Below, piece by piece: positions 12,105 through 26,084 of a DNA stretch of 31,868 nt. How positions within the stretch are numbered: position 1 is the first letter of the stretch; each line of letters begins with the position of its first letter. The position numbers were made by a program, and so were the translations under genes. Under the pieces are notes generated by a model. The model was given only the letters and a program-made list of their open reading frames with translations. It was not told where the DNA came from and ran no database searches. The stretch comes from a virus. The stretch spans positions 1 through 31,868 of IMG/VR virus record IMGVR_UViG_3300048672_000452, one strand, 5' to 3'.

Positions 12105-13016
12105 ATGCCTAGTATTATGCTTCAGGAAAATTTTGGGGACCTCCTTGATCCGAGGTTTTCCAAAATTTACGAAAAAGAGTATGCCGAAAGAATCTCCCAG
12201 AGCATGATTTCCATGCTATTCGGCATGAAGACATCGACCCGTTCAACTGAAATGATGAGCGGCGTTGGTGGGTTGGGCGACGTTCAGGATTTCGACGGGA
12301 CGATTTCGTATGACGGTTTCAGCCAGCTTTATGATTCTTCCGTGACCTTCCCTGAGAAGGCACTTGGAATCAAGGCTGAACGGAAACTCGTTGACGATGA
12401 ACTGTTCGGGATTCTGGATGGTCGTCCGTGGCAGTTGGCTGTTTCCGTTGCCCGTACCCGCGAGAAGGCGGGTGCGTCTGTGTTCGCCAATGCGTTCACC
12501 GACACGGCGGGTATGCCTGACGGTGTAGCCCTCTGCTCCGCTTCACATCCTTATTCCCCGGATGATTCAACCACGCAGTCCAACACGGGGACATCCCCAT
12601 TGTCGGCTACTTCCGTGGAAGCAACACGGAGACTTGGGTTCACCTCTATTTACAACGATAGGGGACAGCTCATGGATGTGAACTACGATACGCTCATTAT
12701 CCCCGTTGCCCTTGAGGAAACGGCTTATGAGCTTATCAATTCCAAGGGAAAGGTTGACGATGATGTGAACAACGTCAACTTTCATTATGGTCGGTACAAG
12801 ATGGCTGTGTGGCCTCGCCTGACCGACAGTAACAACTGGTTCTTCGTCGATTCCAAGATGCTCAAGCAGTTCATCCTGTGGTGGGATCGGATTAAACCAG
12901 AGTTCGCTTATGACCGCGACTACGACACGCTGGTTGCCAAGTGGTCCGTGTACTACAGAAGCAACACCCAGGTCGCGGGTTGGCAGCCTGTCTACGGACA
13001 TAATGTAACAGGCTGA
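12105..13016 (+). CDS. Major capsid protein (HK97 fold, gpT-like)
   Basis: The product has 303 residues, preceded by a consensus AAGGAGG. It would build the icosahedral shell. The N-terminal arm is followed by SYDGFSQLYDSSVTFPEKAL, an E-loop-like stretch. KAERKLVDDELFGILDGRPW, then ARTREKAGASVFANAFT and CSASHPYS, match the spine-helix and P-domain pattern of Mu gpT-type capsid proteins. The C-terminal half (LIIPVALEETAYELINSKGK, then WSVYYRSNTQVAGWQPVYGH) fits the A domain. No protease gene is nearby, consistent with a scaffold-dependent shell without a maturation cleavage. The family is assigned by eye; position after the scaffold is as expected. Confidence 0.85.
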   Translation: MPSIMLQENFGDLLDPRFSKIYEKEYAERISQSMISMLFGMKTSTRSTEMMSGVGGLGDVQDFDGTISYDGFSQLYDSSVTFPEKALGIKAERKLVDDELFGILDGRPWQLAVSVARTREKAGASVFANAFTDTAGMPDGVALCSASHPYSPDDSTTQSNTGTSPLSATSVEATRRLGFTSIYNDRGQLMDVNYDTLIIPVALEETAYELINSKGKVDDDVNNVNFHYGRYKMAVWPRLTDSNNWFFVDSKMLKQFILWWDRIKPEFAYDRDYDTLVAKWSVYYRSNTQVAGWQPVYGHNVTG

Positions 13017-13099: not shown

Positions 13100-14083
13100 A
13101 TGAAACTTAAACGAATGATTGGGGCCGGAAGGCTTTCCGATATGTGGGCCGCAGACAGGATGTACTTTGTCGATGGCGACAACGGAAATGTCAGTAACAC
13201 TGGCCTTGGGTATCCTGAGTATGCGCTTACATTGCCCTCTGCGGCGGTGAATGCGGCAAACTCAGCGGGATACAGGGATGCGGTGATTTACATCCGTCCT
13301 CGTTCAACCGCAACGGGGAACCAGACCTATTACATCGACAACATCACGATTCCTATTGGCCTTGCGGGGCTTTCCATGATTGGTGCGGGTAGCAACCCGA
13401 AACGCCCGTACATGGGGGTTGACATCAAGGCATCCGCTTCCACTTCTCATGTGGTCAATGTGAAGGCTCCTCATGTGACATTGGAAGGGATGCGTCTTGC
13501 CGGTACAGGACAGAATGCAACCGATGCAGTGGCGATTGTGAATGCCTACAACTATGGCAATAGTTCCGGCGCACCCTATGGCCTGACTATCCGTGGTTGC
13601 CGTCTGGACAATGCGAAAACAGGTGGGGCTGTTCGTATGGACAGTCCTGTTGGAGTTCTTATTGAGGACTGTAGTTTCCATGACAACGTCAAGGGAATTT
13701 ACTCTACTTTGTCGGAAATGTCCGGTGCTTCATTCGGTCCGAGGGTCGAGAACTGCGACTTCGGCGGTGCGGTGGCAACGAGAGGCGTTGATATTTATGT
13801 CTCTCAGGGCGGCTTGGGAAATACCACCGGTGCAGACAGTTGGTTGATTGTCCGCTGCAACTTCCTTGATGGACTTCCCAATGGTGGGGATAACAGGTTC
13901 ATCAAGATTGCCAATGGAGACATGGGGCATATTGCCTTCTGTTCGTTCCCTGTTGATCCTGGTGCGAACATGATCGACACCTTTGGGGCGGCGGGTAGCC
14001 AGTGCATCCTTCCGACCACATGGACTATGGCGGGTTGCTACGGGTCCAGCGACGCTGATCCGATTCACCCGATTCTTGCGTAG
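13100..14083 (+). CDS. Right-handed beta-helix protein next to the capsid gene
   Basis: The product has 327 residues, with a GGGGG binding site. The sequence shows repeated short strands and Asn/Asp/Cys turns typical of a pectate-lyase-type beta helix: HVVNVKAPHVTLEGMRLAG, APYGLTIRGCRLDNA, GVLIEDCSFHDNVKG, GPRVENCDFGGA, WLIVRCNFLDGL, MGHIAFCSFPVD. The Cys residues recur at each coil and probably stack. Beta helices usually serve as tailspikes or polysaccharide-binding or -cleaving domains. Here the gene directly follows the major capsid gene and lacks a recognisable virion-attachment domain, so a capsid-surface decoration protein is as likely. No catalytic residues can be assigned. Confidence 0.7.
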   Translation: MKLKRMIGAGRLSDMWAADRMYFVDGDNGNVSNTGLGYPEYALTLPSAAVNAANSAGYRDAVIYIRPRSTATGNQTYYIDNITIPIGLAGLSMIGAGSNPKRPYMGVDIKASASTSHVVNVKAPHVTLEGMRLAGTGQNATDAVAIVNAYNYGNSSGAPYGLTIRGCRLDNAKTGGAVRMDSPVGVLIEDCSFHDNVKGIYSTLSEMSGASFGPRVENCDFGGAVATRGVDIYVSQGGLGNTTGADSWLIVRCNFLDGLPNGGDNRFIKIANGDMGHIAFCSFPVDPGANMIDTFGAAGSQCILPTTWTMAGCYGSSDADPIHPILA

Positions 14084-14140: not shown

Positions 14141-14296
14141 ATGCCGGAGTACAAATGTGATATTTGTAAGGACACGGGGAAGATCCCTCAGTTTGTGGGT
14201 GGAGAAGACGATACTCCATCAGTAAGGGTTGAAGACAGGGATTGTGAGTGTCAAATAAATGATGTTACTCCTAAAAAGGTGAAGAAAAGCAAATGA
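14141..14296 (+). CDS. 51-residue Cys-rich small protein
   Basis: The ATG at 14141 has a consensus AGGAGG site. The product begins MPEYKCDICKDTGKI and later has DRDCECQIN, giving two Cys pairs (6/9 and 35/37) that could hold zinc. The tail is Lys-rich (PKKVKKSK). Its TGA overlaps the ATG of the next gene (ATGA). No family was recognised. Confidence 0.65.
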   Translation: MPEYKCDICKDTGKIPQFVGGEDDTPSVRVEDRDCECQINDVTPKKVKKSK

Positions 14297-14487
14297 CCAT
14301 TCAAATCATTATAAAAGGCGAAAATAAGTTCAAGGGGAAAACAATCTCCGAATTTCAGGATAACCTTACCAGTTGCGGATACCCCTCTGAAATGGGGGAC
14401 AGAGAACGTGATAAGGTGAGGTGGTACGAGAAAAAGCAAGGGAGACGGGTAAGAAAGGAAGAGTTAAAAAAACTCGATGAAATGTAG
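14293..14487 (+). CDS. Small basic hypothetical protein
   Basis: The product has 64 residues; the ATG overlaps the previous stop. The N-terminus is a short beta strand (MTIQIIIKGENKFKG). The C-terminal half is highly charged and helical (KKQGRRVRKEELKKLDE), suggesting nucleic-acid or protein contact. No family was recognised. It leads into the enzyme cassette with a 19-base gap and is presumably co-transcribed with it. Confidence 0.6.
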   Translation: MTIQIIIKGENKFKGKTISEFQDNLTSCGYPSEMGDRERDKVRWYEKKQGRRVRKEELKKLDEM

Positions 14488-14506: not shown

Positions 14507-15178
14507 ATGAAGAAAACATTGTTCACGTTGTCAGTTGACAACTATGCACCGGAAATAACAGCGATCACGTTTCCGATGCTCAAGAGGTATGCGGATAAGA
14601 TTGGTGCAGAGTTCTTTGTCATAAAGGAAAGAAGGTATCCCGACTTTCCCCCTGTATATGAAAAGTTGCAGATTTACGACCTTGGCAAAGAGAACGATTG
14701 GAACATCTTCGTTGATGCCGACACGATGCTGAGAGTGGACCTTCCCGATGTGACCGCCCTCGTTCCAAAGGACACGGTGTTGTTCCACGGGAAAGACTTC
14801 GCTTCTTCACGATGGAAGTATGACGGGTATTTCATGCGGGATGGAAGGCACATAGGGGCTTGCAACTGGTTTGCGGTGGCAAGTAACTGGTGCTTGGATT
14901 TATGGCATCCCCTAGATATCCCACTAAGTAATGCGGTTGAAAACATCACTCTCGTACCGGCAGAAGAGAAAACGGTGGTCACCAACGACCATTTGATTGA
15001 TGACTACACGCTCTCTAGGAATATAGCACGGTACGGGTTAAAGCATCAGACGATTGAAAGCATTATGGCGAGTTACAACTTGAGAAGTGCTGATTACCTG
15101 TGGCATGACTACTTAATCAGCGTAGACGAAAAGGTGCAGTGGATGTTGAAAATAAAGAAGGCGTGGGGGTTGAAATGA
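14507..15178 (+). CDS. GT-A type glycosyltransferase
   Basis: The product has 223 residues, with a GGAGGG binding site. The N-terminal TLFTLSVDNYAPEITAITFP and the DxD motif at 70-72 (NIFVDADTMLRVD) are hallmarks of GT-A fold, nucleotide-sugar-dependent glycosyltransferases. The Asp pair binds the metal that holds the sugar nucleotide. TNDHLIDDYTLSRNIARYG (about 158-176) gives the acidic region expected near the acceptor site. The length is compact, one domain. There is no signal peptide or membrane segment, so it acts in the cytoplasm. The target is unknown: virion protein, DNA base or host sugar. It is first in a tightly packed four-enzyme cassette; its TGA overlaps the next ATG. Confidence 0.8.
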   Translation: MKKTLFTLSVDNYAPEITAITFPMLKRYADKIGAEFFVIKERRYPDFPPVYEKLQIYDLGKENDWNIFVDADTMLRVDLPDVTALVPKDTVLFHGKDFASSRWKYDGYFMRDGRHIGACNWFAVASNWCLDLWHPLDIPLSNAVENITLVPAEEKTVVTNDHLIDDYTLSRNIARYGLKHQTIESIMASYNLRSADYLWHDYLISVDEKVQWMLKIKKAWGLK

Positions 15179-16065
15179 GACCTCTACGAGATTGCGACAC
15201 GTTGCAGATTGAAATTACCAACGTCTGCCAAAACCAGTGTTCAAACTGCACAAGGTTGATTGGTCATCATCCAAATCCCTATTTCATGGGAATGGAAGAT
15301 GTTCAGAGGGCGGTGAACTCTCTGGTGGATTTTCCACGGATGACGGGAATAATGGGCGGTGAGCCTCTCTTGCATCCAGATTTTATTGAGATATGCGAGT
15401 ACCTTCACAGCAAGATTCCCCCCATCCGGTGCGGATTGTGGACATCATTTCCAGAGGGGAAGGAACATTACCGGGAGATCATCGTCAAGACATTCGGACA
15501 TATCTTCTTGAACGACCACACAAGGGATGACGTTCAGCACTGCCCGGTTCTAGTTTCGGCAGAGGAAGTGTGGAAGCAAGACACATACCATATGTGGTAC
15601 TTGATCGAACATTGCTGGGTACAGGAAGGATGGAGCGCATCAATCAATCCCAAGGGTGCGTTCTTCTGTGAGGTGGCGGGGGCATTGTCGATGTTGTTGG
15701 GGGAAAATGAAGCATGGCCCGTCGAGCCGGGGTGGTGGAAGAGGACACCGAAAGATTTTGTGAAGCAGATGGAAACCTACTGCCCTAGATGCGGATGTGC
15801 GATGCCCTTGGGTTCAAGGAAAAGTACGGATGGGGTAGACGATATATCACCGTGTATGCTGGAACGGATAAAGGAGATCTCTCCGAAAGTGAAGCATGGA
15901 AAGTATGAGATCCATAACTTGAAACTGAATTTGAATCAGGAACCGATGGCGACTTACAAGGATGAGCAGTACAGGAAGGAAATAGCGGCAAGGTACGGTA
16001 TGTTTTTAATGAATAACACAGTAGGATTCCAGACCCCATATCTTAAAAAAGACTGGAAACAGTGA
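15175..16065 (+). CDS. Radical SAM enzyme
   Basis: The product has 296 residues from the ATG at 15175 (GGGGG site; ATGA overlap with the glycosyltransferase stop). Residues 18-25 (CQNQCSNC) are the C-x3-C-x2-C iron-sulfur motif that, with S-adenosylmethionine, makes the radical. GGEP (61-64) binds the methionine amino group. C-terminal Cys at 165, 203, 206, 208 and 227 (FFCEV, YCPRCGC) could hold an auxiliary cluster, as in SPASM-type enzymes that modify peptides or sugars. The substrate is unknown. Similar genes occur in uncultured phage contigs in my recollection. It acts in the cytoplasm of the infected cell and needs host iron-sulfur supply. Confidence 0.85.
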   Translation: MRPLRDCDTLQIEITNVCQNQCSNCTRLIGHHPNPYFMGMEDVQRAVNSLVDFPRMTGIMGGEPLLHPDFIEICEYLHSKIPPIRCGLWTSFPEGKEHYREIIVKTFGHIFLNDHTRDDVQHCPVLVSAEEVWKQDTYHMWYLIEHCWVQEGWSASINPKGAFFCEVAGALSMLLGENEAWPVEPGWWKRTPKDFVKQMETYCPRCGCAMPLGSRKSTDGVDDISPCMLERIKEISPKVKHGKYEIHNLKLNLNQEPMATYKDEQYRKEIAARYGMFLMNNTVGFQTPYLKKDWKQ

Positions 16066-16620
16066 ATGGGTAAACTTGGTGGTCATTGCAACATGACGAA
16101 CATGGATAAGGGTTCTCTTGATTACATTGTTCGTAATTTGGGAATCAAAACAATGGTTGATGTGGGATGTGGCCCGGGTGGGATGGTGACTCTGGCAAAG
16201 GAAATGGGTGTTGATGCGGTTGGGATTGATGGAGATCCCACGGTAATTTCTGATATCAGGCACGACTTTGAAAATGGTCCTTTTGTAATCGAACCGAAAG
16301 ACCTTGCGTGGTCGGTGGAGTTTCTGGAACACATTGAGGAGCAGTATCTTGATAATGTGTTCAGTGTTTTCGGGAACTGTAAATATGTGTTCTGCACTCA
16401 CAATCCCAAACCCGGACCGTGGCATTCCAACTGTAAGCCAAATGAGTATTGGGTAAAGGAATTTACAAAGAGAGGGTTTAAGTACGCACCACTGACAACA
16501 CAGGGGATTAAAGAACATAGCACAATGGTAAGGGAATTTGTTCAAAACACGGGGATGTTTTTTATAAATGAAAATTACGATAATCGGCAAGGGAACGGGG
16601 TGGGAACTAGCCCCTCTTAG
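16066..16620 (+). CDS. Class I SAM-dependent methyltransferase
   Basis: The product has 184 residues; the ATG follows the radical SAM stop with no gap. Residues 31-39 (VDVGCGPGG) are methyltransferase motif I, followed by AVGIDGD (51-57, the acidic residue that binds the ribose). WSVEFLEHI (82-90) is motif IV in the style of small-molecule or sugar O-methyltransferases. There is no DNA-methylase catalytic motif (DPPY or PC), so DNA modification is unlikely. It may cap or decorate a sugar added by the glycosyltransferase two genes upstream. Its last 53 bases overlap the next gene. Confidence 0.8.
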   Translation: MGKLGGHCNMTNMDKGSLDYIVRNLGIKTMVDVGCGPGGMVTLAKEMGVDAVGIDGDPTVISDIRHDFENGPFVIEPKDLAWSVEFLEHIEEQYLDNVFSVFGNCKYVFCTHNPKPGPWHSNCKPNEYWVKEFTKRGFKYAPLTTQGIKEHSTMVREFVQNTGMFFINENYDNRQGNGVGTSPS

Positions 16621-17083
16621 CGGAGAGACACTAGGCATAACCCAACTGATTCTCAGGAGGCTTGTAGCAAGGGTAATCGACATGAACGATTATTCCTTGT
16701 GGGGAGAAGCGGAATTGGCAGAGGCTATAAAGGCCAGGAAGGTAGCGAATGATTTAAGTATCCCTTACATTGATCGTGAAAATTACCCGCTTCAAAAGAT
16801 CATTAAAAAGTTTGGGACGGATTACTTTTCTAGCACGGCTGATTATGCGATTGCTCTCTGCATTGACGAAGGATACACCGAAATTGACCTGTATGGGGTT
16901 AATATGAGCGACTCCGGTGAATATGCCTATCAGAAGCCAGGGGTTGATTTTTGGTGCGGCATGGCAATGGGGAGGGGAATTAAGGTCAATGTTTTTGGGA
17001 GGGAGTCACGCATTATGAAGACCCGTGACAATAAACTTTATGGATATGGAATACCACAGGGGGGATTATGCGAAAGAAGATAA
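16568..17083 (+). CDS. Rossmann-like protein of the enzyme cassette (DUF115/MptE-like)
   Basis: The product has 171 residues. The start at 16568 lies inside the methyltransferase gene and has a poor binding site, but the first residues (MKITIIGKGTGWELAP) are a normal beta strand and glycine loop (GKGTG) of a Rossmann-type fold, so a later start would remove the fold. The C-terminal part (IDLYGVNMSDSGEYAYQKPG, then GMAMGRGIKVNVFGRES, then YGYG) follows a pattern I recall from phage proteins distantly like DUF115/MptE-type enzymes, some of which handle nucleotide-sugars or pterins. Catalytic residues cannot be named. It probably works with the three enzymes before it. Confidence 0.55.
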   Translation: MKITIIGKGTGWELAPLSGETLGITQLILRRLVARVIDMNDYSLWGEAELAEAIKARKVANDLSIPYIDRENYPLQKIIKKFGTDYFSSTADYAIALCIDEGYTEIDLYGVNMSDSGEYAYQKPGVDFWCGMAMGRGIKVNVFGRESRIMKTRDNKLYGYGIPQGGLCERR

Positions 17084-17559
17084 AGGGTCCGAAGGTGTAC
17101 GCCTCTGAATCCGTCCTTCGGGAAAAGAAGGAAGAAGTAAAAGAACTTGAATCCATGCTCCAGGGCGGTCAGGTTGACCGTGGGGTGAGCTTCAGGAATG
17201 ACAAGATTCAGGAACCGGAGTTGATTAAGCACCAAATCGCCAAAGCGAAAAGGTTCATTGAATCAAACACACCTAAGAAGTTGAAGGGTGAGGAAGCGAA
17301 CAGGGCCTATAAACGGGCGAAGGAACTCGCCGCGGAATTGAAGGAAGCCATGCCTACTCAGAAGTTGTTCTCACAGAGGTATCCTAAGAGTTCCGACAGG
17401 GCATCAAGGGCAACGGATTTTGAGTCGGCGGTGCGACAACAGATGGAATTTCAGCAGAAGATGGGATCGAAAGCGATTGAATATAGATCGCTTATGGCAC
17501 GGCTAGACCCCTCTAATCCGATGGTGCGAAACATTGAGGCATTGAGAAGGGCAAGATAA
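17068..17559 (+). CDS. Helical charged protein before the head-tail adaptor
   Basis: The product has 163 residues. GGGGGG precedes the ATG at 17068, which overlaps the previous gene by 16 bases. It is almost wholly helical and charged, with coiled-coil character at about 14-30 (ESVLREKKEEVKELESML) and 75-100 (KGEEANRAYKRAKELAAELK). There are no Cys or catalytic motifs. It sits between the enzyme cassette and the adaptor and is coupled to the latter (TAATG). A role in neck assembly or as an internal head protein is possible. No family was recognised. Confidence 0.65.
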   Translation: MRKKIKGPKVYASESVLREKKEEVKELESMLQGGQVDRGVSFRNDKIQEPELIKHQIAKAKRFIESNTPKKLKGEEANRAYKRAKELAAELKEAMPTQKLFSQRYPKSSDRASRATDFESAVRQQMEFQQKMGSKAIEYRSLMARLDPSNPMVRNIEALRRAR

Positions 17560-18431
17560 TGTCCACGACAACGATTGAGCAAAACGTGATTTACGGGCTT
17601 GGTGAGGGAGCGCAGGTATCAGACTCCACAATGCTCTCCTACGCTCTCCGGTGGGCCAATGCGTCTTACCGGGAGATGTATCTCCGCTATCGGTTTAAGA
17701 CGCTCAGAACAAAGTCCATCTTCAGGACAACGGCGGGGCAACAGACCTATCAAGCCCCATCAGACTTTTCAGGATTTCTTACATTAAAGGATGAAAGCAA
17801 TGACCAAATCATATCTCAGATTACGCCAGAAGAAATGCAAAGGAAAATCCAAGAAACAAAAGTAACCGATGAATCCGTGACGGTGGTTTCGGGAACGGCG
17901 GTTGACTTGGATCATGGTGGAATCCAGCAGTATTCAGAAACGGTGACAAACGTGGCGGGAACAACCACTTATGTTCGGGATACAGATTACACGATGGACT
18001 ATGTGGCGGGAACGATAACGATGCTAGGTACTGGCTCGATGACAACGGCAACAGCGCATTACATCGACTACCTCTATATTGAGGATGACATGCCGACGCA
18101 TTTCTGTATTGAATTTGACATCAATACAAACCAGTATCTTTTCCGACTCTACCCGACACCGGACGCAACGTACATCGGGTCAATGGTCTATTCGGCGTAT
18201 CCTTCGGCACTGTCGGGTTCCGTGAATCCCATGTGGGACCAGTTTGAGTTTTGTCTTGAGCGTGGGGGGATCTATTATGGTGCGCTTGAGATAGTGGCAG
18301 ACCCGCAGAAGAGGGTTGAGTACAGGGCAAACTACGAAACGGCGTTACAGGCATTGATTCAGTTGGATTTGGAACTGATCCCCAAGCGGAACACGATACC
18401 AATTATTATGCGGAAATCGGACTATAAATAA
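17559..18431 (+). CDS. Putative head-tail adaptor
   Basis: The product has 290 residues; its ATG overlaps the previous stop (TAATG). Adaptors form the ring beneath the portal. The N-terminus (QNVIYGLGEGAQVSDSTMLS, then RWANASYREMYLRYRFKTLR) is the helical pattern common to adaptor proteins of short-tailed phages, followed by FRTTAGQQTYQAPSDFSGFL, a segment frequent in that group. The middle inserts a beta domain (TAVDLDHGG, then TDYTMDYVAGTITML). The C-terminus returns to helix (FEFCLERGGIYYGALEIVAD). Its place before the nozzle gene is as expected. Identified by eye. Confidence 0.7.
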   Translation: MSTTTIEQNVIYGLGEGAQVSDSTMLSYALRWANASYREMYLRYRFKTLRTKSIFRTTAGQQTYQAPSDFSGFLTLKDESNDQIISQITPEEMQRKIQETKVTDESVTVVSGTAVDLDHGGIQQYSETVTNVAGTTTYVRDTDYTMDYVAGTITMLGTGSMTTATAHYIDYLYIEDDMPTHFCIEFDINTNQYLFRLYPTPDATYIGSMVYSAYPSALSGSVNPMWDQFEFCLERGGIYYGALEIVADPQKRVEYRANYETALQALIQLDLELIPKRNTIPIIMRKSDYK

Positions 18432-21198: not shown

Positions 21199-22425
21199 AT
21201 GGCAGACGGATACCCGGTACACAATTACGGCACAGACCCGTTGGGGAAAATGGGTCTTCTGTGGATGCAACAAGGTCTTGATTGGGACGAGAAGCAGAAG
21301 GCTCTGGAAGCCAAGGCGATTCAAGATGAGGCTACTTCAAGCCGTTCTGCATTCTTGAAATCTGCCGAAGCAGGAACTGCCGACCCCAACGCCGCATACA
21401 GGCTATACGAACCTGATATTGCAAGAGGGGTTATGGGGATGAGTCAGGCGGCGAAAGTCACTAAGATTATCCAACAAGCCGGATTCCTTGCCGACAATGC
21501 CAAGAAGCAACAGGAACTTACGAATTTAGAGGTAGAGAGTGCGCTAAAGTCCGTAAGCCACTGGAAGAAGATAAAAGAACAAGCCCTAATTGCTGAAGAT
21601 ACCGACCTCATGGTTGCCGCAAACGATAACCTGAAAATACTTGGTCAGGATTTGTATAAAAAGACAGGGTATCAGCATGACTTTGTTGCTGAAACAGAAG
21701 TATCTCAGGGAGTTGATTACAAGATGGGAGCGACGATAAAAGTAATCTCTGATTTGACGGATAAACTTAACGCCGCCGTTATCACTGGTGAACTTCCTAA
21801 GATAGTTGAAGCGAATGCGGCTCTTAGCAAACAGCTTCAGTTATCAGCACTATCTCTGAAACAGAAGCCAAGTGACGCTTTCCCGGCTGCTGCTTCTCTG
21901 GCGAAAGAGACTCAGGAAAAAACGATTCCTGAACTTACGAAACAGATGTTGACTCCAAAAACTACTGTTCCCCTTGGAACTATCAAGGATGTCGATAATC
22001 CAGACGGAACCAAGTCGCAGGTACGATTCGACGGAATTCAAGACGGACAACAGGTATGGACAAATATAGGTAGATCTAAACCGGAAGAGAAGAGCGATGA
22101 CACTGCGGCACTTCAGAAAAAGACATCGTATATCGCAAAGGTTCTTGGAGTCACGGAAAAAGAAGCCCTCCCAATGGCTTTGAATGCTGAAACAAAGACT
22201 AAGTTTATTTCTAAGATAGCGGAACAGTCTTCAGCATTGGGCATTCCTGTTACTCCCGCAAAGATAAAAGAATGGGGAGATTCATACGACTTGATTAACG
22301 GGAAGCAGGGTGCGGCTCCTCCCGTGGACAAGGAACGAGAGAATGCTCAAGCGGCAATAGCGGCTGGTAAAGATCCCACTCAAGTTAAAAAGATATACAA
22401 GCAAAGGACAGGTAAGGATTTTTAA
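21199..22425 (+). CDS. Putative ejection (internal virion) protein 2
   Basis: The product has 408 residues, preceded by a GAGG site. It is almost all helix, Lys/Ala/Glu-rich (WDEKQKALEAKAIQDEATSS, QELTNLEVESALKSVSHWKK), without membrane segments, Cys clusters or catalytic motifs. A short beta insert near 265-290 (KSQVRFDGIQDGQQVWTNIG) resembles an isolated phage-type strand pair. The Pro-rich hinge (GAAPPVDKER) precedes a helical end. Its stop overlaps the start of the 1219-residue protein. Middle-of-three position suggests that it makes part of the periplasmic ejection conduit. Function inferred from context. Confidence 0.6.
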   Translation: MADGYPVHNYGTDPLGKMGLLWMQQGLDWDEKQKALEAKAIQDEATSSRSAFLKSAEAGTADPNAAYRLYEPDIARGVMGMSQAAKVTKIIQQAGFLADNAKKQQELTNLEVESALKSVSHWKKIKEQALIAEDTDLMVAANDNLKILGQDLYKKTGYQHDFVAETEVSQGVDYKMGATIKVISDLTDKLNAAVITGELPKIVEANAALSKQLQLSALSLKQKPSDAFPAAASLAKETQEKTIPELTKQMLTPKTTVPLGTIKDVDNPDGTKSQVRFDGIQDGQQVWTNIGRSKPEEKSDDTAALQKKTSYIAKVLGVTEKEALPMALNAETKTKFISKIAEQSSALGIPVTPAKIKEWGDSYDLINGKQGAAPPVDKERENAQAAIAAGKDPTQVKKIYKQRTGKDF

Positions 22426-25400
22426 TGGAAGCAAACCCATACATGGGTATTCCAGATAACCCATATATGAAAACTGAAGATAACCCGTACATGAAGGATG
22501 AACCTTCCGTGTTGTCGAGTATTACTTCCGATATCGGCAAGGGTGCGTCAAAGACATTGGGCGTTGTTGTCGGTGCGGCGAATGCACCATTAGCGTTTAT
22601 CCGTGGGATGCAGAACGCTCCTATTGACGCAAGCGGTGGATTTGAAGAGTGGAATAAACTCCCGTGGTATCAAAAGCCATTGGTGATGTTGGGTGGTGGT
22701 TTTGAATCGGCGGCAAGGTCTATCGGCAAGGAAGGTGATTGGGGGGAAAGCTATGACCGCTATTACAAGGCAACTTCGGGAAGGACACTTGAACAGGATT
22801 TCGGAAAGGGTGCGAATTATATTCGGCTTGCGCTTGACCTGACGAATGACCCTATGGTTGGACCTGCTATCGGTGCAGACTTGGCAAAGCAGGGCGTTAC
22901 AACTGCCGGTCAGTTCATGCGGTATATTAGAAGAGGGGAAGTTTCGTTAGGCGCAAAAGAGGTAGTCAAGATTCCCAAAACCATGATGTCTGATATTAAC
23001 AAGCTAGACAAACTGGACGTTGCCGAAAAAGACGCATTACGACAGAACCTTGTGGATTTATTGCGTGGGAAAGCGCAGGGGGATGCGGCGTTACAGAAAG
23101 GGGATGCGTTACGGCAGGGGAAAGTTGCATCGTTGCTTGAAGAGGGTAAAGTAGAACCAATTCCACAGGAGTTAAGTGTTGGCAAGAGTTTACCGGAATA
23201 CGGAAAGGGTTCCGTACCTGAAGAGATAGTCATTCCGCGAGGAGTTGCGAGTACGGAAGATGTATTTTCTGAAGCACCATTGCCACCTCCGAAACGGGAA
23301 AAGAGAATACGCACATTAAAAGATGATCCAGAAAAGACACCTTATTGGCTAAAACGTGTCGGGAAAGATATTCCAGAAAAAGACCGCTATACCGAAGCTA
23401 AGAGGCTACAGCAAAAATACTTAGATTCCCAAGTCGCTATGCACGGCGCGGGTGCGATTACCGGTGTCGATGTTGATGAGGAAGGAAATCCCACCTATGA
23501 CTTTGCCAAAGGTGCAGGGGGTGCGGCACTTGGCATGGCTGCGTTCAAGATGGCTCCATTCCTAAAAAAGTCAGCTGCGGCTCAGAAGTTATATGATCAG
23601 AATCCAAACTGGTCAAAAGTCCACGATATGATTGGACAGGACAAGACTCCATTCAGTTTCATGGGTTTGTGGAATGATGTCTGGAAAATGGGGATAGATA
23701 AGTTTGAGCCGATAAACAAGGTTTCCCGTGAAACATACGATGCGGCAATTAAGTATCAATCCTACAAGGATGTTGCCGCTATAAAGATGAGTGAACTTGA
23801 CCCATACTTCAAGCCGTTTGGCAAAAAAGATTCGGTCATGGTTAGCGAGTACATTGCCGCAAAACGAGCCATAAACCGTGCAGAGAATGGAATAAAGAAC
23901 CCGAATAACGTGACATTGGCTGATGCTCAAGGCGCAGTTAAAGAAATCGAGGCAACCTATCAGGCGAAAGGTGGTGACATCAACGACCTTCGCAAGGCGG
24001 CTGATGGATTCCATAATTGGGCGCAACGAAACATTTTAAAAGAGGCTTTGGATAACGGCTTTATTTCTCAAGAGGCATACAACAAGATAAAAGCGAACAA
24101 TAGTTTCTATGCCACCTTTGATGTACTTGCCCATATGCCTGAAGATATGGACAAGATTCCAATATTGGCGAGTAATGAATACTTCAGCATGAGTAACCAG
24201 AAAATCATCAAGGCAATGAAGGGGACGGAAAAGGCTATCGACGATCCCATAGAAGCGACAATAAGGAAATTCGCAAGCGCACAGGCTCAGTTTGCACAGA
24301 ATAAAGTTGCTTCTACTTTCATTGATGACATGATTTCCAATCCCGATCCCGTAAAGCAGGCGATGATTCGTCCATTGGCGCAGACTAAAAAAGAGTTCGA
24401 TATCCTCACGAAGCAGGGCATGAATCCTGTCGCTTCTGTTCCCGATGGATGGGACACCATTAATCGGATGAAGAACGGAAATGTTGAGAAATATGTCGCA
24501 CCAAAAGAGATTACGGAATCAATGAAGCAGTTGAAGCCGTGGCAAGCACCAAAGGCGGTACAGGCGATGAACTCTATATTCAGAAGTTCAGCAACTACCT
24601 TGTATCTCCCGTTCACGGTTGGTAATGCGGTGCGTGACGCATTCATGGCCTTTGTAACATCTCCGGTTTATCGTGGGGCAGAGGTCGTGAAATTCCCCGT
24701 CGATTGGTTGAAGGGTGCTTATGAGGGATTGAAGTATGAGTTTGCCAATAACTCAAAGGCAGTGGAAGGATACCTGAAACACGGTGGTGGTTTTGGATGG
24801 ACAAGTGAAGTAAGGGATGCCACGGCGACAAAGGAAAAGTTATTCAAGGGACCGCTTCAGATTGTGATGAATCAAGCCAATCTATTCAAGCAGATTGAAA
24901 AGTTGTCCGGTGCAATAGAACTTGCGCCTCGTATGGCGGTTTATGAGAGGGCAATCAAACAGGGCGGTTCGATGGATGATGCCGCTACGCTTGCAAGAAA
25001 GGCAACCATTGATTTCAACAGGTCTGGAAGCCTTCTGAAAGTATTGAATCAGTTTGTGCCATTTCTTAATGCACGGGTACAGGCGCGAACAGTTATGGCA
25101 GAGGCATTGAAGAGTGACCCCAAGGGAACGATAGCCAAGGGATTCATGGCGGCTGTCCTCCCTGGTGCGGCGTTGTATGCCTATAACCGGCAACACTTCT
25201 CTGATTTGTACGACGATATCCCTAGATACACTAGAGATAATTATTTCACGTTTATCACTGGTGAAACGAAGGATGAGAAGGGAAACACTGTCCCGACATA
25301 TTTTGTGATTCCCAAAGGTGATGTGGGGCAGATGCTTTGGAACCCCATAGAACACTTTATTGATAAGGTATGGAAAGATGACAAGAAAAGCACTACTGAA

Positions 25401-26084
25401 TTTTTAACTCAGTTTGCAAGTGACTTATCTCCGATAGCGTTTGCCAACGAAGGAAAGTTGTCTGCCAGTTTAACGGCATCTAACGTAACCCCTCCTGCGG
25501 TGAAGGCTGTTTATGAGAACATAACCAATAAGAATCTTTATACTGGTCAGGATATTGTTCCTTACTTCATGGAGAAGAACAAACCGCCAGAACTTCAGTT
25601 TAAGGAAAAGACACCAGAGACATATAAATGGATTGCAAAAGAACTGAAGGACAAAGCAAATATCAGTATGTCTCCTCTCAAGATGCAAAATTTCATGTCC
25701 AATATCATAGCGGGATATGGGCGTGAAGGTCTTGACCCTGCGGCAATGATGAAGGGATTAACGGGGAGATTCTACAAGGAACAGGGTGGGCAAAAGGAAC
25801 GTGACATATGGGATTTGATTAAGGAAATAGAAACTGGATACAACACCGCACGATCCTATGCAGAGCAATTTGTAAGGGATGGCGATAGACCTTCTGCGCT
25901 CAAGTTAATGCAGAAGTGGAATGAAGGGATGGATAAACAGGTTGAGCGGATGGGGAAAGGCGGGATTTCCGATAAGGGTGGGGTGAGAAGGGATTACTTC
26001 TTCACCTTTGAGAAGATGAAGGGCGTTATGCAGTCTGGTATGGACACTAGATCCGCACTACAGAAAAAGATATCGGTGAAATAG
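22425..26084 (+). CDS. Large ejection protein with LPD38-like region
   Basis: The product has 1219 residues, the largest here. The first 25 residues hold three NPYM copies eight residues apart (residues 4, 12, 20). A glycine-rich hydrophobic region follows (KTLGVVVGAANAPLAFIRGM). Around residues 720-745, TLYLPFTVGNAVRDAFMAF matches the N-x-x-R-D signature, and about 860-890, DFNRSGSLLKVLNQFVPFLN matches the second signature, of the LPD38 domain found in large polyvalent and ejection proteins of phages. The rest is mostly helical. Such proteins enter the host with phage DNA. No lytic transglycosylase motif was seen, so wall penetration must be by another protein or an unseen domain. Confidence 0.75.
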   Translation: MEANPYMGIPDNPYMKTEDNPYMKDEPSVLSSITSDIGKGASKTLGVVVGAANAPLAFIRGMQNAPIDASGGFEEWNKLPWYQKPLVMLGGGFESAARSIGKEGDWGESYDRYYKATSGRTLEQDFGKGANYIRLALDLTNDPMVGPAIGADLAKQGVTTAGQFMRYIRRGEVSLGAKEVVKIPKTMMSDINKLDKLDVAEKDALRQNLVDLLRGKAQGDAALQKGDALRQGKVASLLEEGKVEPIPQELSVGKSLPEYGKGSVPEEIVIPRGVASTEDVFSEAPLPPPKREKRIRTLKDDPEKTPYWLKRVGKDIPEKDRYTEAKRLQQKYLDSQVAMHGAGAITGVDVDEEGNPTYDFAKGAGGAALGMAAFKMAPFLKKSAAAQKLYDQNPNWSKVHDMIGQDKTPFSFMGLWNDVWKMGIDKFEPINKVSRETYDAAIKYQSYKDVAAIKMSELDPYFKPFGKKDSVMVSEYIAAKRAINRAENGIKNPNNVTLADAQGAVKEIEATYQAKGGDINDLRKAADGFHNWAQRNILKEALDNGFISQEAYNKIKANNSFYATFDVLAHMPEDMDKIPILASNEYFSMSNQKIIKAMKGTEKAIDDPIEATIRKFASAQAQFAQNKVASTFIDDMISNPDPVKQAMIRPLAQTKKEFDILTKQGMNPVASVPDGWDTINRMKNGNVEKYVAPKEITESMKQLKPWQAPKAVQAMNSIFRSSATTLYLPFTVGNAVRDAFMAFVTSPVYRGAEVVKFPVDWLKGAYEGLKYEFANNSKAVEGYLKHGGGFGWTSEVRDATATKEKLFKGPLQIVMNQANLFKQIEKLSGAIELAPRMAVYERAIKQGGSMDDAATLARKATIDFNRSGSLLKVLNQFVPFLNARVQARTVMAEALKSDPKGTIAKGFMAAVLPGAALYAYNRQHFSDLYDDIPRYTRDNYFTFITGETKDEKGNTVPTYFVIPKGDVGQMLWNPIEHFIDKVWKDDKKSTTEFLTQFASDLSPIAFANEGKLSASLTASNVTPPAVKAVYENITNKNLYTGQDIVPYFMEKNKPPELQFKEKTPETYKWIAKELKDKANISMSPLKMQNFMSNIIAGYGREGLDPAAMMKGLTGRFYKEQGGQKERDIWDLIKEIETGYNTARSYAEQFVRDGDRPSALKLMQKWNEGMDKQVERMGKGGISDKGGVRRDYFFTFEKMKGVMQSGMDTRSALQKKISVK

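Follow-up and report, generated by a model that had tools for sequence, protein, structure and literature searches.

Gene content of the locus

The stretch of DNA analysed here (hereafter the window, at its full length) is a 31,868-base virus contig in which Pfam-level searches recognise a capsid protein together with a portal and an adaptor of SU10 type. A preliminary description of this DNA had placed four overlapping or abutting open reading frames with enzyme motifs in the middle of the virion operon; the frames, motifs and overlaps exist as claimed, and the placement is borne out by the capsid gene on one side and the adaptor gene on the other. The features are as follows.

12105..13016, + strand: major capsid protein (MCP; PF25209, E 3e-8; phrog_371)
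13100..14083, + strand: beta-helix protein between capsid and GT, a candidate substrate (PF13229, E 5e-7)
14507..15178, + strand: glycosyltransferase (GT) of predicted GT-A fold, 223 aa, gene 1 of the conserved unit (model, PDB matches, family alignments A2 and A4)
14714..14722, + strand: DAD motif (D70-A71-D72) of the GT, both Asp invariant in 56 homologs
15175..16065, + strand: radical SAM enzyme (rSAM), gene 2 of the conserved unit (PF04055, E 2e-7; family alignment A1)
15226..15249, + strand: CX3CX2C radical SAM cluster motif (C18, C22, C25) of the rSAM, invariant in A1
15613..15792, + strand: candidate auxiliary-cluster ligands C147, C165, C203 and C206 of the rSAM, a twitch-type set, all four invariant in A1
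16066..16620, + strand: class I methyltransferase (MT), a possible sugar-tailoring accessory, not conserved with the pair (PF08241, E 1e-4)
16568..17083, + strand: Rossmann-like protein (Ross), a lineage gene separable from the pair (homologs without GT or rSAM in loci L020, L281 and L282)
17559-18431: SU10-type adaptor (PF24175)

The start of the rSAM gene, given as GTG 15139 in the list of open reading frames, is best moved to ATG 15175, the start conserved in A1, which produces an ATGA overlap with the GT stop. The MT begins directly after the rSAM stop, and Ross, whose start is backed by homologs (including that in L023), overlaps it by 53 bases. Searches of Pfam and PHROGs returned no family match for either GT or Ross. 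Immediately 5' of the GT lies a 64-aa open reading frame (14293-14487), which was considered as a peptide substrate of the rSAM and set aside, its support being a single weakly similar frame (23 bits), which precedes the GT of L228. At 22425-26084 the window encodes its largest protein, of 1219 aa, which contains an LPD38 domain (PF18857).

Structure prediction and fold search, which the preliminary description had recommended, returned a GT-A fold for the GT. The AlphaFold model (pLDDT 97.4) found its best PDB matches, using Foldseek and VIA-align, in domain 1 of PBCV-1 A064R (Z 13.4-13.6 over 175-181 residues, 3.4-3.6 Å, approximately 10% identity), followed by LgtC (Z 12.7) and a xyloglucan xylosyltransferase, with STIV protein A197 also present in the Foldseek list. 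The predicted assignment draws upon similarity to GT-A enzymes in the PDB, with Z reaching 13.6 across 175-197 residues, and the sequence contains a DxD metal-binding motif, D70-A71-D72, in which both aspartates are invariant across 56 sequences. The lead of A064R domain 1 over LgtC or the xylosyltransferase is less than 1.1 Z units and, because this lead is small, the match is taken to indicate the fold of the GT and not its function. Assignment to the HMW1C-like N-glycosyltransferases (NGT, GT41), which adopt a GT-B fold and act alone, was rejected as the window GT models as GT-A. Sequence searches of the PDB with the single GT or the single rSAM gave no useful match.

The rSAM scores 31.6 bits against PF04055 (cut-off 29.5) and retains C18, C22 and C25 invariantly, placing it in the radical SAM superfamily; GGEP is present at residues 61-64, with further cysteines toward the C-terminus. 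Four of these (C147, C165, C203 and C206) are invariant among the 11 sequences of A1, as for the twitch subclass, whose single auxiliary Fe-S cluster they may bind. A CX3CX2C core followed by four C-terminal cysteines likens the rSAM to the twitch enzymes (BtrN, MoaA and SkfB), and the cysteine spacing is one that we take to equal that of BtrN. The BtrN profile itself matches weakly and in the N-terminal core alone (positions 8-93, E 0.003). A set of four such cysteines could supply all the ligands of a single auxiliary cluster, the situation in BtrN (PMC6231123). The MT, with 23.2 bits against PF08241 (Methyltransf_11; cut-off 21.2) and motif I reading VDVGCGPGG, is a class I SAM-dependent methyltransferase.

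A conserved gene pair in virion operons

Relatives were gathered from bacterial and viral collections, first with the single proteins and later with the rSAM alignment A1 and the GT alignment A2, and duplicates were removed; many of the contigs are fragments, and genes were called with a simple open reading frame picker. GT and rSAM occur together in at least 56 distinct loci, the window included, always on the same strand and with the GT upstream. Among the 56 loci listed the two genes are separated by no more than 60 bp in 27 and by no more than 1.2 kb in 25 more. Among the matches listed, the GT is present at 51 of the 54 viral loci whose rSAM scores at least 380 bits; in the remaining three the rSAM lies no more than approximately 1 kb from the start of the locus, near a contig end, and one of these keeps a GT fragment. 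More distant viral rSAMs are accompanied by a GT in 2 of 25 cases, again among the matches listed.

The pair is found behind at least four types of MCP gene, namely P22-like, SU10-like, HK97-like (a label that reflects our own reading of the sequence) and that of the window, and in 34 of the 56 loci the GT follows a recognised MCP at a distance of five genes or fewer, linking the GT to virion genes. The order MCP, beta-helix, GT, rSAM recurs in L102 and L228. In a quick tree of rSAM sequences capsid type does not track rSAM kinship, which suggests that the two genes move between phages as a unit. Additional genes beside the pair are variable, comprising, in the loci listed, a nucleotide-sugar epimerase (16 loci), a Methyltransf_24 protein (14 loci) and a GIY-YIG homing endonuclease (4 loci). 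The endonuclease gene, situated between GT and rSAM (L102:3522-4100, also L123, L142 and L150), may aid the spread of the pair. At one locus (L134:4346-10687) the pair adjoins a frame of 2114 aa with about 400 Ser-Pro dipeptides.

Relatives of the rSAM also occur in other settings. In T7-like phages or prophages a relative without a GT is located between the genes for scaffold and capsid (L160:7998-8879, L163:8001-8900, L173, L177, L017 and L086; roles assigned by eye), and in three viral contigs (L154, L161 and L172) a nonulosonic-acid-like sugar island (amidotransferase, cytidylyltransferase and synthase, by eye) includes one. In INPHARED, tblastn found no match to the rSAM, and the GT and Ross each matched one entry, a distant marine virus and a Microcystis phage, respectively. 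A literature search, with most subscription journals outside its scope, returned no title or abstract describing a phage GT-rSAM pair.

An Ala-Asn signature in virion proteins

The signature described here was spotted while reading capsid-side proteins of phages that carry the pair, i.e. post hoc, and was tested with controls afterwards. Expected counts were derived from the composition of each protein, and the totals omit GT and rSAM because the A-N-x-T excess of the rSAM is due to a conserved (S/A)-N-C-T motif of that enzyme, as read from A1. Across the pair loci the dipeptide Ala-Asn (AN) occurs 1764 times against 1098.8 expected (1.61-fold), compared with 1137 occurrences (1.03-fold) of the reversed dipeptide NA. 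Observed-to-expected ratios for AN in the comparison groups were 1.11 (GT only), 0.87 (rSAM only, viral) and 0.79 (bacterial rSAM), with the T7-like loci that carry rSAM alone also lacking the signature, and proteins with AN enriched at p<1e-4 numbered 19 in the pair loci and none in the other groups. In 14 control phages taken from a public collection (13 whose MCPs are homologs of the P22-like type and one with a homolog of c12, a post-MCP protein considered below; no GT or rSAM match in the stretches examined) the ratio was 1.05. The comparison holds within capsid families, AN ratios being 1.85 for P22-like MCPs with the pair against 1.09 in the 13 homologs without it and, from small numbers, 2.2 for HK97-type MCPs with the pair against 1.12 with the GT only.

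In an unbiased scan AN ranks first among residue pairs at gaps of 0-4. By context, the excess in the pair loci is 3.16-fold for A-N-x-T, 1.84-fold for A-N-x-S and 1.43-fold for the remaining A-N, and proline directly after A-N falls to 0.54 of expectation, as against 1.25 after other asparagines and 1.06 after A-N in the controls. This pattern, A-N-x-T/S with avoidance of proline, is similar to an N-glycosylation sequon to which an alanine has been added. An artefact of DNA sequence or local composition is ruled out, as all eight AN codon pairs are used, NA is not enriched and the excess stands out against locally shuffled sequences (z 18.3 for AN, 17.9 for A-N-x-T). Per-locus ratios separate pair from GT-only loci at p 5e-8, with only 23 of 54 pair loci individually reaching p<0.01, and pooled p-values are too small because sites in related phages are not independent. 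The controls reduce, and do not remove, the concerns attached to limited lists of loci, fragmentary contigs, simple gene calling, kinship and a signature recognised post hoc.

Within the pair phages the A-N-x-[TS] excess is concentrated in P22-like MCPs (54 observed, 10.7 expected) and in two unrelated proteins encoded after the MCP, c10 (73 against 15.5) and c12 (16 against 3.6); tail-side proteins are enriched too. The portal (0 against 2.1 expected), the GT and the epimerase are without the signature. SU10-like MCPs are depleted, with strong enrichment in the neighbouring c12. The scaffold protein c6 (e.g. in L104 and L109) carries 13 such sites against 2.4 expected even though it is expected to be internal, possibly reflecting one conserved site counted many times. 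When P22-like MCPs are aligned, AN is present in at least four of 14 pair phages at nine columns, at which the controls mostly have other small residues; since these columns were chosen on AN in the pair phages, the fair comparison is with the reverse selection, which yields three columns. In a medium-quality model of c12 built from nine sequences, 14 of the 15 A-N asparagines are predicted to lie outside strands and helices.

In the window phage the signature is weak (AN 48 against 39.3 expected; A-N-x-[TS] 11 against 5.9, p=0.04). In its beta-helix protein, which the preliminary description had named as a possible substrate, not one of the six N-x-T/S sites (against 2.8 expected) follows an alanine, and across three homologs AN occurs 7 times against 5.8 expected, which leaves this protein a candidate. 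Relatives with the same MCP and beta-helix differ, A-N-x-[TS] being enriched in L228 (11 against 2.7) and not in L102 (4 against 2.9). Given the weak excess in the window and one positive and one negative relative, the family-level reading reaches the window by homology only; on this footing the window phage may use the same A-N-x-T/S site.

Proposed reaction and relation to known systems

On balance we favour a reading in which the GT-rSAM pair modifies asparagine in outer virion proteins, probably by glycosylation. The two genes would constitute a mobile unit whose products act on these proteins in the cytoplasm of the host, probably when the late genes are expressed, the favoured site across the family being the asparagine of Ala-Asn-x-(Thr>Ser), where x is not Pro. 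The GT would most likely transfer a sugar to this asparagine or to a group built on it, and the rSAM, with its putative single auxiliary Fe-S cluster, would most likely oxidise or radically alter the asparagine or the sugar. The restriction of the signature to phages with both enzymes suggests that the rSAM step is needed for, or linked to, use of the site. Synthesis or decoration of the sugar would fall to the epimerase and methyltransferase genes that adjoin the pair, and possibly to the MT of the window.

More tentatively, we can envisage GT and auxiliary-cluster rSAM jointly installing a glycan on the asparagine of Ala-Asn-x-Thr/Ser in capsid, decoration and tail proteins, by a radical-dependent, cytoplasmic and sequon-directed process that is widespread, for which many sites have evolved, and that we could match to no described system; this fuller proposal is possible rather than probable. 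Were it correct, many uncultured phages would coat their particles with a coded asparagine modification produced by a GT and a radical SAM enzyme, and a new route of protein modification would exist in the bacterial cytoplasm, with a readable signature that predicts the modified virion proteins. The substrate and site of an otherwise unexplained gene pair would then be predictable from sequence, making its function directly testable.

The signature would also arise if the GT alone glycosylated virion asparagines and the rSAM tailored only the sugar or the nucleotide donor, for example as a BtrN-like dehydrogenase, leaving the protein untouched. We judge this unlikely; it stays alive because bacterial and some viral relatives of the rSAM have genes of sugar synthesis as neighbours (roles by eye), and the epimerase and MT genes adjoining the pair are of sugar-tailoring types, with BtrN among the weak profile matches of the rSAM. 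Against it, phages with the GT only show almost no A-N signature, and the rSAM genes of T7-like prophages are solitary, flanked by those for scaffold and MCP and, over the few kb looked at, by nothing recognisable as a sugar gene; for these lone genes action on a protein is favoured. It is more doubtful still that the signature follows some other shared trait, such as host lineage, virion architecture or habitat, with GT and rSAM directed at the host surface or another target. Such a cause would fit a signature that is weak or lacking at roughly half of the loci with the pair, including the window, and the fact that pair phages are mostly uncultured and without an assigned host; it fits poorly with the presence of the signature in several unrelated families of virion protein and on three of the four MCP backgrounds, and with its lack in homologous MCPs without the pair and in the portal and enzymes of the pair phages themselves.

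A pathway of four enzymes with MT and Ross as obligate partners, as originally proposed from this DNA, appears very improbable. The tight overlaps and common strand of the four genes and the occurrence of Ross, GT and rSAM, in that order, in L023 speak for it; this is, however, the one other place among the loci listed where these three are found together, and the four-gene order is not conserved in those loci. Ross occurs near homologous capsid genes in L020, L281 and L282 without GT or rSAM, and so belongs to the phage lineage and not to the GT-rSAM unit. The MT found no relative in a scan of the viral collection, other loci having a methyltransferase of a different family, an epimerase or nothing. 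Since GT and rSAM alone travel together, what survives of the four-gene cassette is a conserved two-gene unit in virion operons, for which modification of the virion is favoured over host-surface or nucleotide-sugar targets by its position, by an A-N-x-T/S signature absent in controls and by a GT fold nearest to that of a chlorovirus capsid-glycan GT. Separately, the control phage MW202573.1 (L264:11499-12685) has two genes in the interval from coat protein to tail adaptor, one with a methyltransferase domain and one whose annotation notes similarity to STIV A197; neither matches the GT model, and the two are perhaps an analogous cassette.

The asparagine modification that we favour can be set beside three known systems. 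In PBCV-1, A064R domain 1 acts as a rhamnosyltransferase in lengthening the capsid N-glycan, whose attachment sites read N-T-x-T in three cases out of four (PMC9614988). Both systems have a virus-encoded GT-A enzyme, and PBCV-1 has capsid asparagine glycans and a methyltransferase domain accompanying the GT; in contrast to the phages, its host is eukaryotic, identity to the window GT is approximately 10%, A064R domain 1 extends an existing glycan rather than starting one, its sites read N-T-x-T rather than A-N-x-T, and the sections seen describe no radical SAM partner. In the mycobacteriophages Che8, Corndog and Myrna, according to secondary accounts, phage GTs glycosylate capsid and tail tube proteins (Freeman et al. 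2023, cited in PMC12363180), and the glycans are reported to lie at C-termini (cited in PMC12619734). These likewise link a phage-encoded GT to virion proteins, but at C-terminal positions and not at A-N-x-T, and the accounts as seen mention no radical SAM partner. HMW1C-like NGTs glycosylate asparagine as soluble cytoplasmic enzymes with an N-x-S/T preference (cf. PMC10507012). Sequence counts find A-N-x-T/S, a candidate site, enriched in proteins of the pair phages. The window GT differs from these NGTs in being paired with a radical SAM enzyme, and the phage motif in its additional alanine at position -1.
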